Below, piece by piece: positions 37,001 to 41,222 of a stretch of DNA of 64,000 nucleotides (positions are counted from its first letter, which is position 1; every line of letters starts with the position of its first letter). The translations under genes and the position numbers were made by a program. Location of the stretch: contig NC_013165.1 in assembly GCF_000023885.1 (NCBI RefSeq), forward strand, positions 744,001 to 808,000. The letters run 5' to 3'. The notes beneath the pieces are model-generated. The model ran no database searches, was not told where the DNA came from, and was given only the letters and a program-made list of their open reading frames with translations. The stretch comes from Slackia heliotrinireducens DSM 20476. Lineage in GTDB: Bacteria; Actinomycetota; Coriobacteriia; Coriobacteriales; Eggerthellaceae.

Positions 37001-37324
37001 GGGCTCCTTCGGCGTCTTGTCCGATTGTTTATACCAAGGATACCCGAAGCCGTCCACCACATGTCCGACACGTGTCGCCGAACGAAGGAAGGCTTCGCAT
37101 TTGCGTTGTACAGTCCGAAGCGGCGCGAAGTTGCACTCGGTTCTGCATGGTGTATTTCGACCGCCAGATGAACGTCCGTTGACCGAAGGCGGATTATGGA
37201 GAACAAAAAAGTTGTTCACAGTTGCATATCGTGTTATATGATATGCATGAACAATATGTATAATCTTGTATACGGATTAGTTTATGACAATGCTAAGGTA
37301 CATAGCTGATAATTGGGAGGCGAA
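37001..37324. other. Divergent control region of nuclease and padR genes
   Basis: No gene. The right half (37200-37324) is AT-rich and carries inverted repeats, including the palindrome listed at 37223-37247 and AACAA..TTGTT at 37202-37216. Confidence 0.5.
37223..37247. promoter_or_regulatory. Candidate PadR operator
   Basis: TGCATATC and GATATGCA, perfect 8-bp arms 9 bases apart, about 80 bases before the padR start. PadR proteins bind such AT-rich dyads, so autoregulation is plausible. Confidence 0.5.
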
Positions 37325-37900
37325 ATGAAGATTGATTACGTGTTGCTTGGCTTAATCAGAATCAACCCGAATTCCTCGGGATATCAGCTCCGTGGCATGA
37401 TTAACAATTCAACGGGGTATTTCTTCACGGCGCATCTGAGCCAGATTTATCCCGCGCTTCGCAAAATGCTCGACAACGGCTGGCTCAAGGTCGAGCTGCT
37501 GCCCCAAGACGGCAAGCCGGACGCCAAGCTGTACAGCATCCTGCCAAAGGGTGAGGAAGCCTTGGACGCTTGGTTGAACGAGCCATTCAAGTTCGGCATG
37601 GGGCGTTCCACATCGGACGAGTACATCACCAAGCTCATGTTCATGGGCCATATGCCGAATGACAAGCTGTTGGCATACATCGATGCCGGCATCAAGCATT
37701 TTGAGAAGGAGCGCCGCGAAATCCTCGAGAGCAACCTAGGACCCGAGAAGGAGTCCGTCGAATGGCTTGCCCCCGATATCCGCAATCGCTACCTGACTAT
37801 CTGGGGCAACGAGTTCGATTACATCGTCAAAGAGACTCAATCCCGCATCGACCGTCTGACAGCTCTGAAAGAGGCCATCTTGGCCAATCAGGAGAAATAG
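37325..37900 (+). CDS. PadR-family transcriptional regulator
   Basis: A 191-residue regulator. Residues 1-85 form the PadR winged helix (VLLGLIRINPNSSGYQLRG, then LSQIYPALRKMLDNGWLKVE and the wing DAKLYSILPKGEEAL); 95-191 form the C-terminal dimerisation helices (Vir_act_alpha_C type). The ATG at 37325 follows GGGAGGCGAA. It is convergent with the P1B-type ATPase gene. Its gene position suggests it controls the adjacent metal locus, but its target is not proven. Confidence 0.88.
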   Translation: MKIDYVLLGLIRINPNSSGYQLRGMINNSTGYFFTAHLSQIYPALRKMLDNGWLKVELLPQDGKPDAKLYSILPKGEEALDAWLNEPFKFGMGRSTSDEYITKLMFMGHMPNDKLLAYIDAGIKHFEKERREILESNLGPEKESVEWLAPDIRNRYLTIWGNEFDYIVKETQSRIDRLTALKEAILANQEK

Positions 37901-37953
37901 GCTGTCGAAAAGACCGTCGTCGCAAAGCGGCTGGTGTACCCTGTAGACGTAAA

Positions 37954-37990
37954 ACAAGAGGCCCGGGCATTGCCTGGGCCTCTTGTTCGT
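37954..37990. terminator. Bidirectional terminator between padR and the ATPase
   Basis: ACAAGAGGCCCGGGCA pairs with TGCCTGGGCCTCTTGT (one mismatch or G-U), a stem of about 16 bp shared by the two convergent genes. Confidence 0.75.
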
Positions 37991-38008
37991 TCATTGGCGG
38001 CTGCGGGT

Positions 38009-40117
38009 TTACAGCTCCAACTCCTTCTCGTGCTGGGGCAGGTACGCGGCGGTGTTTCGTAGGCTCATAGCCACGGTCGATGCATTGTGCAGCAACGACG
38101 ACAACTGAGGCGAAATGACGCCCAGGATGCCAAGGGCCAGCAGTGCCGAATTGATGGTCATGGTGCTGGCATAGGATACGTTCAGGCGGTTCATCAGTTC
38201 TTGGCTCAGCTGGCGAAGCATCACCAGAGAGTCGAGGTTAGAGCCGGAAAGAACGATGTCAGCGACTTCTTTCGCGATGTCGGAGCCTTGTCCCATGGCC
38301 ACGCCGACGTCGGCGCGGGACAGGGCGGGGGAGTCGTTCACGCCATCGCCCACCATGGCGACCACACGTCCTTCTTCCTTTAGGCGCTCCAGGTAAGCGA
38401 ACTTGTCCTCGGGAAGCATGTTCGCCTGGAATTCGTCGATGCCGGCTTCGGCGGCAATGCGTTCTGCGGTTTTCTGGGCGTCGCCCGTCAGCATGACCAC
38501 ATGCTTAAACCCAAGGTCACGCAGCTGCTGAATGGCCTTTCTCGTATCGGCTTTCAGGGGGTCCTGGACCCCTAGTACGCCGACCAGCTTGTGGTTGACC
38601 GCAAGGTACAAGGGGCTCAGACCATGGAAGGTGTCTTCCAGATAGGCGATTGTCTCGTCGGAAATGGGGACGTGCTCGTCTTCGATGACGAAATGACGCG
38701 ATCCGATGACGACGCGGTGCCCGTCAAGCGAGGAGGCGATGCCGTGGGCGACGATGTACTCGACGGCCGCATGGCGCTCGCGGTGCTCCAGATTGCGCTC
38801 CATGGCACCGTGCACCACGGCTCGGGCTACGGGATGCGGGAAGTGCTCTTCGAGACAGGCTGCCAGACGCAGGACCTCTTCCTCCGGCCATGCAGGATCA
38901 AGAGATTCAACCTTTGCCAGTTTGGGTGCTGCTTCAGTCAGTGTGCCGGTCTTGTCGAACACGATGGTGTCGGCGTTTGCAAAGGTTTCGAAGTGCTTGG
39001 CTCCCTTGGTGGTGACGCCTGCCTTGGCGGCGTTGCTCATGGCGGTCATGACGGCGATGGAGCCAGTAAGTTTCAAGGCGCAGGAATAATCGACCATCAG
39101 TGCGGCAGACGTCTTGATGATGCTGCGCGTGGTAATGGCGACCAGGCCTGCCAACAGGAAATTCCAGGGGACGATCTTGTCGGCAAGGGCTTCCATGCGG
39201 GACTGGCTCTCTGCCTTGAGGTCGTCGGCCGCATTGACCATGGTGACGATGCTGCGCAGCCTTGTTTGGTTGGTGTCGGAACGCACGCGGATGTACAGCT
39301 CGCCCTCTTCAACGGCGGTTCCTGCGTACACGTCGTCGCCGACGGACCGACGGATTGCCAAAGGTTCGCCCGTAAGGCTGGCTTGGTTCACGGCGCCTTC
39401 GCCCGCTTCGATGACGCCATCGACGCAGATGGACTGTCCCGTGCGCACGACAACCAGGTCGCCTGCGGCAAGCTCGTTGGACGGAACGATCATTTCGTCC
39501 CCATCGATGACCTTCCGTGCGCTTTCAGGCACGTCGAGCAGCGAATTGATTAGCGCATTCTCGGACGAAGCTCGAGTGTAGTCTTCTAGAATCTCGCCGA
39601 CGTTCAGCAGAAGCATGGTGGAGCCAGCTGTGTTGAAGTCGCGCTTCAAGAACGAAATGGCAATGGCCGACATGTCCAGTACAGGGACGGTCAGGCGGCT
39701 GTTCGCCAGTTCCGCCACGCCTGCCTTCAGGAAGGGCAAGAACGAGACGACGGTGCATATCGCACGCAGCGGGGCAGGAAGGACCCACCGGCGGAAGACG
39801 TATCCGCCGATGACGTTCGCCAGCTGGAAGAACAGTTTTGAGGCGCGGGGCGCCAAGGTCATGGTGTATTGCCCGCGGGCAGCAGCGATCTTCTCGGCAT
39901 CGATGGAGCGAAGGTGATCGATGACGGTTTTGCGGGCGTCGGGGGCGTTCACGTAATTGACAGCGAGCTGTCCAATACGCGCATACACCGTCACCTTCGT
40001 GACATACATGCACGATTTGGTGACGGTGATGAGCGAATCGATGTCGTTGTCGGGAACCGGACCAGCCAGGTTCAGACGCATGCGCCCCGGAATCTCAGTA
40101 CGAATCGAGAAATCCAT
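38009..40117 (-). CDS. P1B-type metal ATPase with SCA motif (P1B-6, FezB-like)
   Basis: A 702-residue heavy-metal P-type ATPase. The N-terminus (about 1-70) is a degenerate HMA-like domain beginning RTEIPGRMRLNL. The phosphorylation motif is FDKTGTLTE (Asp about 384), with the TGE actuator loop ASLTGEP and MVGDGVNDSPAL. The metal-site helix reads VDYSCALKLTGS (about 339-350): Ser-Cys-Ala replaces the CPC/SPC of copper, zinc and cobalt pumps. SCA is, as I know the scheme, the signature of subgroup P1B-6, which includes FezB of iron ferrosomes. A small membrane protein gene precedes it by 20 bases, and a PadR gene is convergent. Iron is therefore the best guess for the cargo. Confidence 0.88.
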   Translation of the reverse strand: MDFSIRTEIPGRMRLNLAGPVPDNDIDSLITVTKSCMYVTKVTVYARIGQLAVNYVNAPDARKTVIDHLRSIDAEKIAAARGQYTMTLAPRASKLFFQLANVIGGYVFRRWVLPAPLRAICTVVSFLPFLKAGVAELANSRLTVPVLDMSAIAISFLKRDFNTAGSTMLLLNVGEILEDYTRASSENALINSLLDVPESARKVIDGDEMIVPSNELAAGDLVVVRTGQSICVDGVIEAGEGAVNQASLTGEPLAIRRSVGDDVYAGTAVEEGELYIRVRSDTNQTRLRSIVTMVNAADDLKAESQSRMEALADKIVPWNFLLAGLVAITTRSIIKTSAALMVDYSCALKLTGSIAVMTAMSNAAKAGVTTKGAKHFETFANADTIVFDKTGTLTEAAPKLAKVESLDPAWPEEEVLRLAACLEEHFPHPVARAVVHGAMERNLEHRERHAAVEYIVAHGIASSLDGHRVVIGSRHFVIEDEHVPISDETIAYLEDTFHGLSPLYLAVNHKLVGVLGVQDPLKADTRKAIQQLRDLGFKHVVMLTGDAQKTAERIAAEAGIDEFQANMLPEDKFAYLERLKEEGRVVAMVGDGVNDSPALSRADVGVAMGQGSDIAKEVADIVLSGSNLDSLVMLRQLSQELMNRLNVSYASTMTINSALLALGILGVISPQLSSLLHNASTVAMSLRNTAAYLPQHEKELEL

Positions 40118-40137
40118 GGGGTACGCTCGTTTCCTAA

Positions 40138-40395
40138 CTAGGCTTCGGCCTCGACTTCTTCGGCGGCTTCGGCATCCTGCTTGGTGAGGTAGGTGGCCTC
40201 AGCGACGATGTCGTCGACTTCAGCCTTGGCCTGCTCGATAACGTCATCGTACGTGTTCTTGATGCGCATGCCGGTGGCTGCTGCCTGGACATAGCACTTC
40301 TTGGCGGTCTCGCTCTTCAGGGCGGTCAGGCCGACCGTGCCCAGAAGGAATCCGCCGGCGACAAGGAGGGTGTGGGTTTTGCTGAACAGTGACAT
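40138..40395 (-). CDS. Small membrane protein of the metal-ATPase operon (DUF6110-like)
   Basis: An 85-residue protein with one N-terminal membrane helix (LLVAGGFLLGTVGLTAL, about 10-26), then a helical acidic tail (DDIVAEATYL, EEVEAEA). Similar small proteins annotated DUF6110 accompany P-type ATPases in Firmicutes and Coriobacteriia. It is the first gene of the ATPase operon, in the place where fez clusters carry a small hydrophobic partner (FezA-like). The membrane helix has the Gly-spaced GGxxxGxxG pattern that supports helix packing. The start has AAAGG at a 10-base distance. Confidence 0.72.
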   Translation of the reverse strand: MSLFSKTHTLLVAGGFLLGTVGLTALKSETAKKCYVQAAATGMRIKNTYDDVIEQAKAEVDDIVAEATYLTKQDAEAAEEVEAEA

Positions 40396-40510
40396 AGTTG
40401 ATGCCTTTCTCTTCGAGGTGGGTAATTGCAGTTGTCAACTTACGTATGTTTTTACAGGTTTTTGCGCTTTGTTGCAAGTCAAAAACAGGCGTTAACCTGG
40501 GGAAACGATA

Positions 40511-40545
40511 AACCATAGGTAACTATGTACACATAGGTTAACCAT
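40511..40545. promoter_or_regulatory. Candidate metalloregulator site
   Basis: It contains direct repeats CATAGGTAAC (40514) and CATAGGTTAAC (40532), the dyad CTATGT-AC-ACATAG (40523-40536) and the perfect palindrome GGTTAACC (40536-40543). AGGTTAACC-type sequences resemble half-sites of DtxR/IdeR-family iron regulators. Confidence 0.45.
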
Positions 40546-40567
40546 TAGATTCCCGAAACTTCAATCT

Positions 40568-40629
40568 CCAATCAGGGAATACTTGGCTTATACCAATATC
40601 AAAAAACGGAATATATCGTTTCTGATTGG
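40568..40629. repeat. Inverted repeat CCAATCAG / CTGATTGG
   Basis: Perfect 8-bp arms 46 bases apart, enclosing AT-rich DNA with AAACG..CGTTT near its right end. It lies between the two divergent metal genes. Confidence 0.4.
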
Positions 40630-40826
40630 CGCTGGCCTACATCGGTCTGTTTTGAATTATGGAGGAAATGTGAACGCAGGGGTGTTCGCTGCGGTCTGCA
40701 AAAGCGGCTGAAGCGTGTCGAACACACGAATCCAATGTTGTATGCCTCAGTTAACAACTGCATGGAAAGTGCTACACTGCGTTATGAGTTATACACCGAG
40801 AAGAGGCGTGGGAAGGAAAACGAACT

Positions 40827-41222
40827 ATGAATCTGTCGACTGCCATTGTCATTCTCATCATCGCGGTAATCGGGTTTTTCGCGTTCCGTCGCACCCGCGA
40901 TGTGTTTTTCGGCAAGAAGGATTGCTGCAACACCAGCCCCGCCGGCCCGAAGGCGAAGAAGTTCAAGGACGTCACCGTTTCGGATACGAACGTGGATAAC
41001 TATCCCTACGTTGTCGAGGTCACCGTCGGCGGCATGAGCTGCGAGCACTGCGTGCATGCGGTTGAGAATGCCATCAACAGCATCGAAGGCATGTGGGCGA
41101 CGGTCGATCTTGAGAAACGCACAGCCACGGTCCGTGGCAAGGGCGAAATCGACCAAGACGCTATCGACAAGGTCATCGATCAGGCCGGGTACTACGTTAT
41201 CCGCCAGCCGAAGCAAGCCTAG
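40827..41222 (+). CDS. Membrane-anchored HMA metal-binding protein
   Basis: A 131-residue protein. An N-terminal membrane helix (about 5-22) is followed by a short Cys segment, RDVFFGKKDCCNTS, which resembles the small Cys-rich membrane proteins that accompany FeoB. A heavy-metal-associated domain follows (about 55-127) with the metal motif GMSCEHC. It is divergent from the ATPase operon with 431 bases between. It may deliver or sense metal at the membrane. The start has AAGGAAAACGAACT. Confidence 0.8.
   Translation: MNLSTAIVILIIAVIGFFAFRRTRDVFFGKKDCCNTSPAGPKAKKFKDVTVSDTNVDNYPYVVEVTVGGMSCEHCVHAVENAINSIEGMWATVDLEKRTATVRGKGEIDQDAIDKVIDQAGYYVIRQPKQA

Follow-up and report, generated by a model that had tools for sequence, protein, structure and literature searches.

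A candidate FezAB-type ferrosome locus in Slackia heliotrinireducens and a 26-residue microprotein associated with related pump loci

Whether Slackia heliotrinireducens, an anaerobe from the sheep rumen flora, may build ferrosomes (small iron granules enclosed by a membrane) is the question raised by a short stretch of its genome (strain RHS 1T; 3,165,038 bases, here a single contig; PMC3035243). In the window, a stretch of 64,000 nucleotides (positions 744,001 to 808,000 of contig NC_013165.1), the initial annotation had proposed a Fez-like iron-storage locus, made up of a P-type ATPase gene co-transcribed with the gene of a tiny membrane protein and flanked by genes for a PadR regulator and a membrane HMA protein. 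All four genes are present at the locus, and both the ATPase frame and the small membrane protein beside it were confirmed (Table 1).

Table 1. Features of the candidate locus (window coordinates) and the unlinked microprotein gene (genome coordinates)
Feature	Position	Strand	Remarks
PadR-family regulator	37325..37900	+	neighbour; convergent with ATPase
Hairpin separating the stops of ATPase and PadR	37953..37987		possible bidirectional terminator
FezB-type P1B-6 ATPase	38009..40117	-	702 aa; TM4 SCA, TM6 HN, N-terminal PGRMRL
FezA-type small membrane protein, DUF6110	40138..40395	-	85 aa; first gene of the pair
Intergenic region of the divergent genes, with candidate metal-regulon boxes	40396..40826		boxes 40739-40756, 40507-40524, 40526-40543
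Membrane-anchored HMA (CxxC) protein	40827..41222	+	divergent from the DUF6110-ATPase pair
Microprotein MKNHKYWAIAACICMFMAMYTGYKHK	own genome 207283-207363 (L189:7284-7364)	+	ribosome site upstream; unlinked to the pump

A Pfam scan found the E1-E2 ATPase and hydrolase domains in the pump, which contains VDYSCALK in TM4, LLHNAS in TM6 and PGRMRLNL at its N-terminus. SCA in TM4, which we take to be the signature of class P1B-6, stands together with HN in TM6, and both motifs recur in the C. difficile pump, in agreement with the class proposed initially. HN in TM6 is described as a P1B6 feature (PMC9374683). Both SCA and HN were found in all 28 homologues scoring at least 499 bits, and among 88 P-type ATPases SC was present in TM4 of 69, every one of which also has HN in TM6. 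The metal site varies across side branches of the pump family, where related pumps carry the altered TM4 motifs SCG, SCV, ICG, ACP and ATG (L120-L123, L088, L150, L092, L153, L152, L138). The N-terminal domain had been described as HMA-like with a GRMRL motif; the motif is there, but the HMA-like label holds by homology only, since the N-terminal 133 residues of the window protein gave no match in the Pfam scan, while HMA_2 was matched in 13 of the 28 homologue N-termini scanned together with it and, barely above the cut-off (30.4 versus 30 bits), in that of C. difficile FezB.

The fezAB genes of C. difficile are CD630_05910-05920 (PMC11651100), and its ferrosomes are reported to require both FezA and FezB, which are repressed by Fur (PMC12574912). 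For comparison we used two C. difficile draft genomes (HC132 and CD160), located via a 16S pattern. Each holds one pump homologue that covers residues 2-690 at 541-545 bits (beyond it, matches are partial and reach 254 bits at most), and a DUF6110 protein (84 bits) is encoded upstream of it, adjacent in HC132 and about 580 bp away in CD160; by content and gene order this pair is taken for fezAB. Between the window ATPase and C. difficile FezB the identity is 41%, with 62% positives over 702 columns; between the window ATPase and three CPC pumps of its own genome it is 30-34%, over part of the length. The two DUF6110 proteins align at E 2e-11. We conclude that the window ATPase and its DUF6110 partner are homologous to the presumed C. 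difficile fezAB products, with the same gene order.

After setting aside 20 of the 88 ATPases, which were near duplicates or distant pumps, we placed the window pump among the remaining 68 rows by a quick maximum-likelihood tree. Its clade comprises 30 rows (100% SH-aLRT) and falls within a branch of 53 rows (99% SH-aLRT) that also takes in a second Coriobacteriia clade, Deinococcus and Clostridia, among them C. difficile FezB. Pumps of Proteobacteria and Campylobacterota lie just outside this branch and the DUF1490-type CPC pumps further out; because of long branches, the inner branching order is unsure. Forcing the window clade together with the DUF1490-type CPC pumps cost 126 log units in an AU test (p 0.0004), for which the groups were named after the tree had been seen. 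The tree and this test reject a zinc-type DUF1490/CPC pump of the PacL kind. The phylogenetic check suggested initially came out in favour of FezB, as the window ATPase groups with the C. difficile pump and not with the CPC pumps of the DUF1490/CtpC type. A grouping with copper, zinc or manganese pumps had been named as evidence against the proposal; the comparison, made with DUF1490/CtpC-type CPC pumps, did not refute it, known manganese pumps lying outside the set.

The small partner matches DUF6110 with 35.3 bits against a Pfam cut-off of 26. Its stop codon lies 20 bp from the ATPase start, both genes being on the minus strand, and from this spacing the co-transcription asserted in the initial annotation is likely. 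Using a DUF6110 model built here (E ≤0.01), we found a match directly upstream of 65 of the 69 SC-motif pumps, and two further upstream matches (L041, L105) when long frames were kept, bringing the count to 67; of the remaining two pumps, one is cut by a contig end (L058) and the other, from Azospirillum, has a YtxH-like protein upstream (L089). The model also matched upstream of 4 of 15 CPC pumps, one of which (Rhodococcus, L091) has an annotated DUF1490 protein at that place. Across the 28 loci, the DUF6110-ATPase pair is the sole widely kept arrangement. This pairing is not new: Boudehen et al. 2022 (PMC9374683) had described the relationship between DUF6110 proteins and DUF1490/PacL, and had noted that genes for the former usually accompany those for P1B6 pumps, Actinobacteria included. 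In the literature searched, DUF6110 appears in two PacL papers, whose main texts have no occurrence of the word 'ferrosome', and the equation of FezA with DUF6110 was not found in the literature searched; the founding ferrosome papers, outside that search, may state it. Two literatures are joined here, in that the presumed C. difficile fezA encodes a DUF6110 protein, of a family that the PacL authors call PacL-like.

The 28 homologous loci, mostly full length, come from 27 of 61 genomes (our own and 60 relatives) at the threshold of 499 bits. Of 138 Eggerthellaceae genomes sampled, 64 have the pump by a threshold of E 1e-85, with the motifs checked in part of them; it was found within the genus in 5 of 12 genomes and absent from 7, so that its distribution is patchy. 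One genome of the same genus (G002) carries two different DUF6110/P1B-6 pairs (L037, L051). FezB-like pumps also occur on plasmids of Azospirillum, Arcobacter, Vibrio and Cereibacter (L089, L090, L151, L152); three of these four adjoin annotated strings of small, mostly unnamed genes (the Vibrio record is unannotated), and those of Azospirillum and Cereibacter lie near iron-uptake genes.

Evidence on the transported metal was sought among neighbouring genes and in promoter regions. Within 4.5 kb of 53 related loci 453 genes were predicted, of which 235 were listed and 136 scanned, DUF6110 proteins, five plasmid loci and some farther genes having been excluded by hand. Among the 25 of 146 neighbour families listed, FeoB_N tied as the commonest (7 of 136) with ABC_tran and MMR_HSR1, a GTPase family that FeoB also matches; Fe_dep_repress came next (5 of 136) and FecCD lower (2 of 136), and no copper or zinc family was among them. 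A direct search placed FeoB near 6, a DtxR-type regulator near 6 and either of them near 8 of the 53 loci, in both Clostridia and Coriobacteriia, these being raw counts; Pfam confirmed the families of nine of these neighbours and of the own genome's proteins. Within 14 kb around the window locus we found no feo gene or DtxR-type regulator; the feo set of the genome is arranged as feoA-feoA-feoB-small protein-DtxR type.

A motif learned de novo from 21 upstream regions outside this genus yielded an 18-bp palindrome, AGTTAaCCATGGtTAACT, which scores 118.6 compared with 32.5-41.7 in ten shuffled sets, and 18 of the 27 upstream regions contain the word AAGTTA, against an expectation of 2.7. The three boxes of the divergent intergenic region, in the order of Table 1, rank first, fourth and tenth among the 63,983 window positions; the first lies 88 bp before the HMA gene, closer to it than to the pump, and the second about 110 bp before the DUF6110 gene. 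The palindrome was also found some 15 bp ahead of feoA in the genome itself (12.4 bits), before feoB of another genome (G119; 22.2) and at the 5' end of feoB in the locus L054 (20.9). Elsewhere in 136 kb of own sequence, two sites score higher. When one mismatch was allowed, the pattern had 14 sites in the genome versus 13 for the reversed control, that is, no genome-wide enrichment. These 14 sites (L216-L229) lie before feoA, before TetR/ABC-transporter sets (judged by eye) and near Fur-type genes, and possibly mark a metal regulon, though they do not exceed the reversed-pattern control. Taken together, the promoter box lends moderate support to a joint control of the pump locus with feo, and iron as the pump metal appears moderately supported. 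The genome further encodes three matches to ferritin-family proteins, hence another iron store exists. A role of the ferrosome as a ferritin substitute was rejected, as 130 of the 138 family genomes, our own included, have ferritin-family matches.

The upstream regions of the pump loci also revealed a divergent frame of 26 codons, whose product is listed for S. heliotrinireducens in Table 1. A model built from pump-adjacent copies was searched against whole genomes; its matches are short stop-ended frames with E ≤3e-8, followed by a gap to 0.16 and above, and another search showed a comparable gap. Across the family we obtained 45 strong matches in 45 of the 138 genomes, excluding three weak partial ones by a line drawn after seeing them. 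The microprotein occurs in 42 of the 64 genomes with the pump (22 have none) versus 3 of the 74 without it (Fisher p 1e-15, uncorrected for kinship), and 37 of the 45 copies lie within 3 kb of the pump. Two of the three pump-less genomes have pump fragments beside it. In one stretch (L193:1839-6617) the remains of a FezB-type ATPase gene, decayed, adjoin feoB, genes of the AraC and DtxR regulator types and a microprotein gene that is still intact, which seems to be a fez system that lost its pump and kept the 26-codon gene. In a clostridial genome the microprotein gene comes first, followed on the same strand by those for DUF6110 and the pump. In two phyla, DUF6110/P1B-6 loci show a strong association with this unannotated one-helix protein.

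We picked 39 distinct copies by pattern; a word resembling a ribosome site accompanies 32 of them, and the differences between copies concentrate at third codon positions (8.4, 7.6 and 13.6 for the three positions). The copy of S. heliotrinireducens is preceded by an 8.7-bit box, the seventh best of 136,073 own positions. Across 23 rows no variation is seen at Met1, His4, Cys14, Thr21 or Gly22; 2 of the 39 copies deviate, with Phe14 in L195 and Ala21 in L115. All four copies scanned match one half of Pfam DUF6219, one of them above the cut-off; no mention of DUF6219 was found in the literature searched. One copy weakly matched a b-type hydrogenase cytochrome (E 7e-4) and another cytochrome b561 (E 0.007), matches that prove little alone because an unrelated phage family was weakly matched too (E 0.017). 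FezC has been reported as a ferrosome cytochrome with a haem site modelled in dimeric form (PMC10979944), and read alongside this report the matches suggest a helix that may bind haem. The microprotein is probably a third part of the candidate system. As a tentative idea, less likely than not, we offer that in ferrosomes of Coriobacteriia and some Clostridia this overlooked protein may form haem-carrying pairs and serve as a minimal b-type cytochrome setting iron redox across the ferrosome membrane, as proposed for FezC.

The genes flanking the pair suggest other readings. Control by the adjacent PadR regulator would make the ATPase a stress pump unrelated to iron, and the PadR gene does adjoin it here, just as a PadR relative adjoins another ATPase of the same genome (L069). 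However, a PadR homologue stands beside none of the 27 other related ATPases, and the gene runs towards the pump with a strong hairpin between the two stops (one that a separate terminator scan did not list), for which reasons we treat PadR as a separate unit. We therefore rejected it as the system's regulator, contrary to the initial annotation; it is probably not part of the pump system, and a PadR-controlled stress pump seems highly improbable. On the other flank, the HMA protein, with its TM segment and CxxC site, could be a metallochaperone for an exporter of another metal (Zn, Cd, Cu or Mn). CopZ-type models match it below their cut-offs, and in NCBIfam the ATPase passes the general heavy-metal model as well as a cadmium subfamily (346.4 bits versus a cut-off of 313.5). 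Such an exporter is nevertheless an improbable explanation given the SCA, rather than CPC, of TM4, the rejected grouping with CtpC-kind CPC pumps, and the high rank of iron transport and repressor families, with none for copper or zinc, among the neighbour families listed. The HMA homologue is kept in 4 of the 28 loci, all of the own genus, and was rejected as a core component; it is likely a lineage-specific accessory, mainly a genus-level neighbour. Another HMA homologue lies near a pump of a different family (L206).

A plasma-membrane Fe(II) exporter deserves more weight, although we still hold it to be rather unlikely. Here the DUF6110 protein would assemble the pump into efflux platforms, in the way PacL1 does with the zinc pump CtpC, and iron would leave the cell with no organelle formed. 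The published relation of DUF6110 to DUF1490/PacL and its typical pairing with P1B6 pumps (PMC9374683) agree with such a role, as does a weak DUF1490 match of the window protein (21 bits), and export and storage look alike at the level of sequence. That match, however, lies below the cut-off of 28.4, leaving the protein outside DUF1490; it has a single histidine and the tail EATYLTKQDAEAAEEVEAEA, lacking a His-rich C-terminal metal-binding motif, and the ATPase branch shared with C. difficile FezB excludes the DUF1490-type pumps.

We lean, with somewhat better than even confidence, towards a ferrosome (FezAB) system of the C. difficile type that may form organelles. This reading draws on the identity to FezB, the DUF6110 alignment and gene order, the tree and AU test, the upstream DUF6110 genes, the feo neighbours and the shared box; weighing against it are the lack of feo or DtxR genes nearby, the presence of the ferritin family, the box without enrichment, the 7 pump-less genomes of the genus and the pass in the cadmium subfamily. 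Under a FezAB mechanism, iron shortage would cause an iron-responsive regulator, perhaps the DtxR-family protein of the feo set or Fur, to release the box in the promoter region. FezA, with one helix, a Gly-rich membrane segment and an acidic tail, would cluster and stabilise FezB, which would pump cytosolic Fe(II) into membrane vesicles at the expense of ATP, for storage there with phosphate; the unlinked microprotein would be a probable third component. A 2025 review asks whether other commensals possess ferrosomes (PMC12574912), and 'ferrosome' together with 'Eggerthell-' was not found in the literature searched, which did not cover the founding ferrosome papers. If real, such iron organelles may be common in a family of gut Actinomycetota, going by the pump's occurrence in close to half of its genomes, with relevance for iron competition in the gut.

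Compared with known systems, the locus resembles the fez clusters with FezC of Desulfovibrio and Rhodopseudomonas, by their published description, in its FezB-type pump. Reports describe FezC as a b-type cytochrome resembling DUF4405 (PMC10979944); the four window proteins scanned gave no DUF4405 match. With mycobacterial PacL1-CtpC it shares a small one-helix partner of a related family and a P1B6-like ATPase with HN in TM6 (PMC9374683), but CtpC has CPC in TM4 and PacL1 is a DUF1490 protein with a metal-binding tail, in contrast to the SCA and the DUF6110 protein of the window. The C. difficile fezAB locus likewise has its DUF6110 gene ahead of the gene for an SCA/HN P1B-6 ATPase, whose identity extends over the whole protein. 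It belongs to another phylum, has an A/T-rich palindrome upstream, unlike the window box, and no microprotein was found beside the pair in the two loci examined, whereas the window genome has its unlinked copy; the divergent HMA gene is a feature of the window locus. The pump pair joins a known kind of system, and its 26-residue companion is the novel part, providing a small, testable handle on iron redox handling in ferrosomes.
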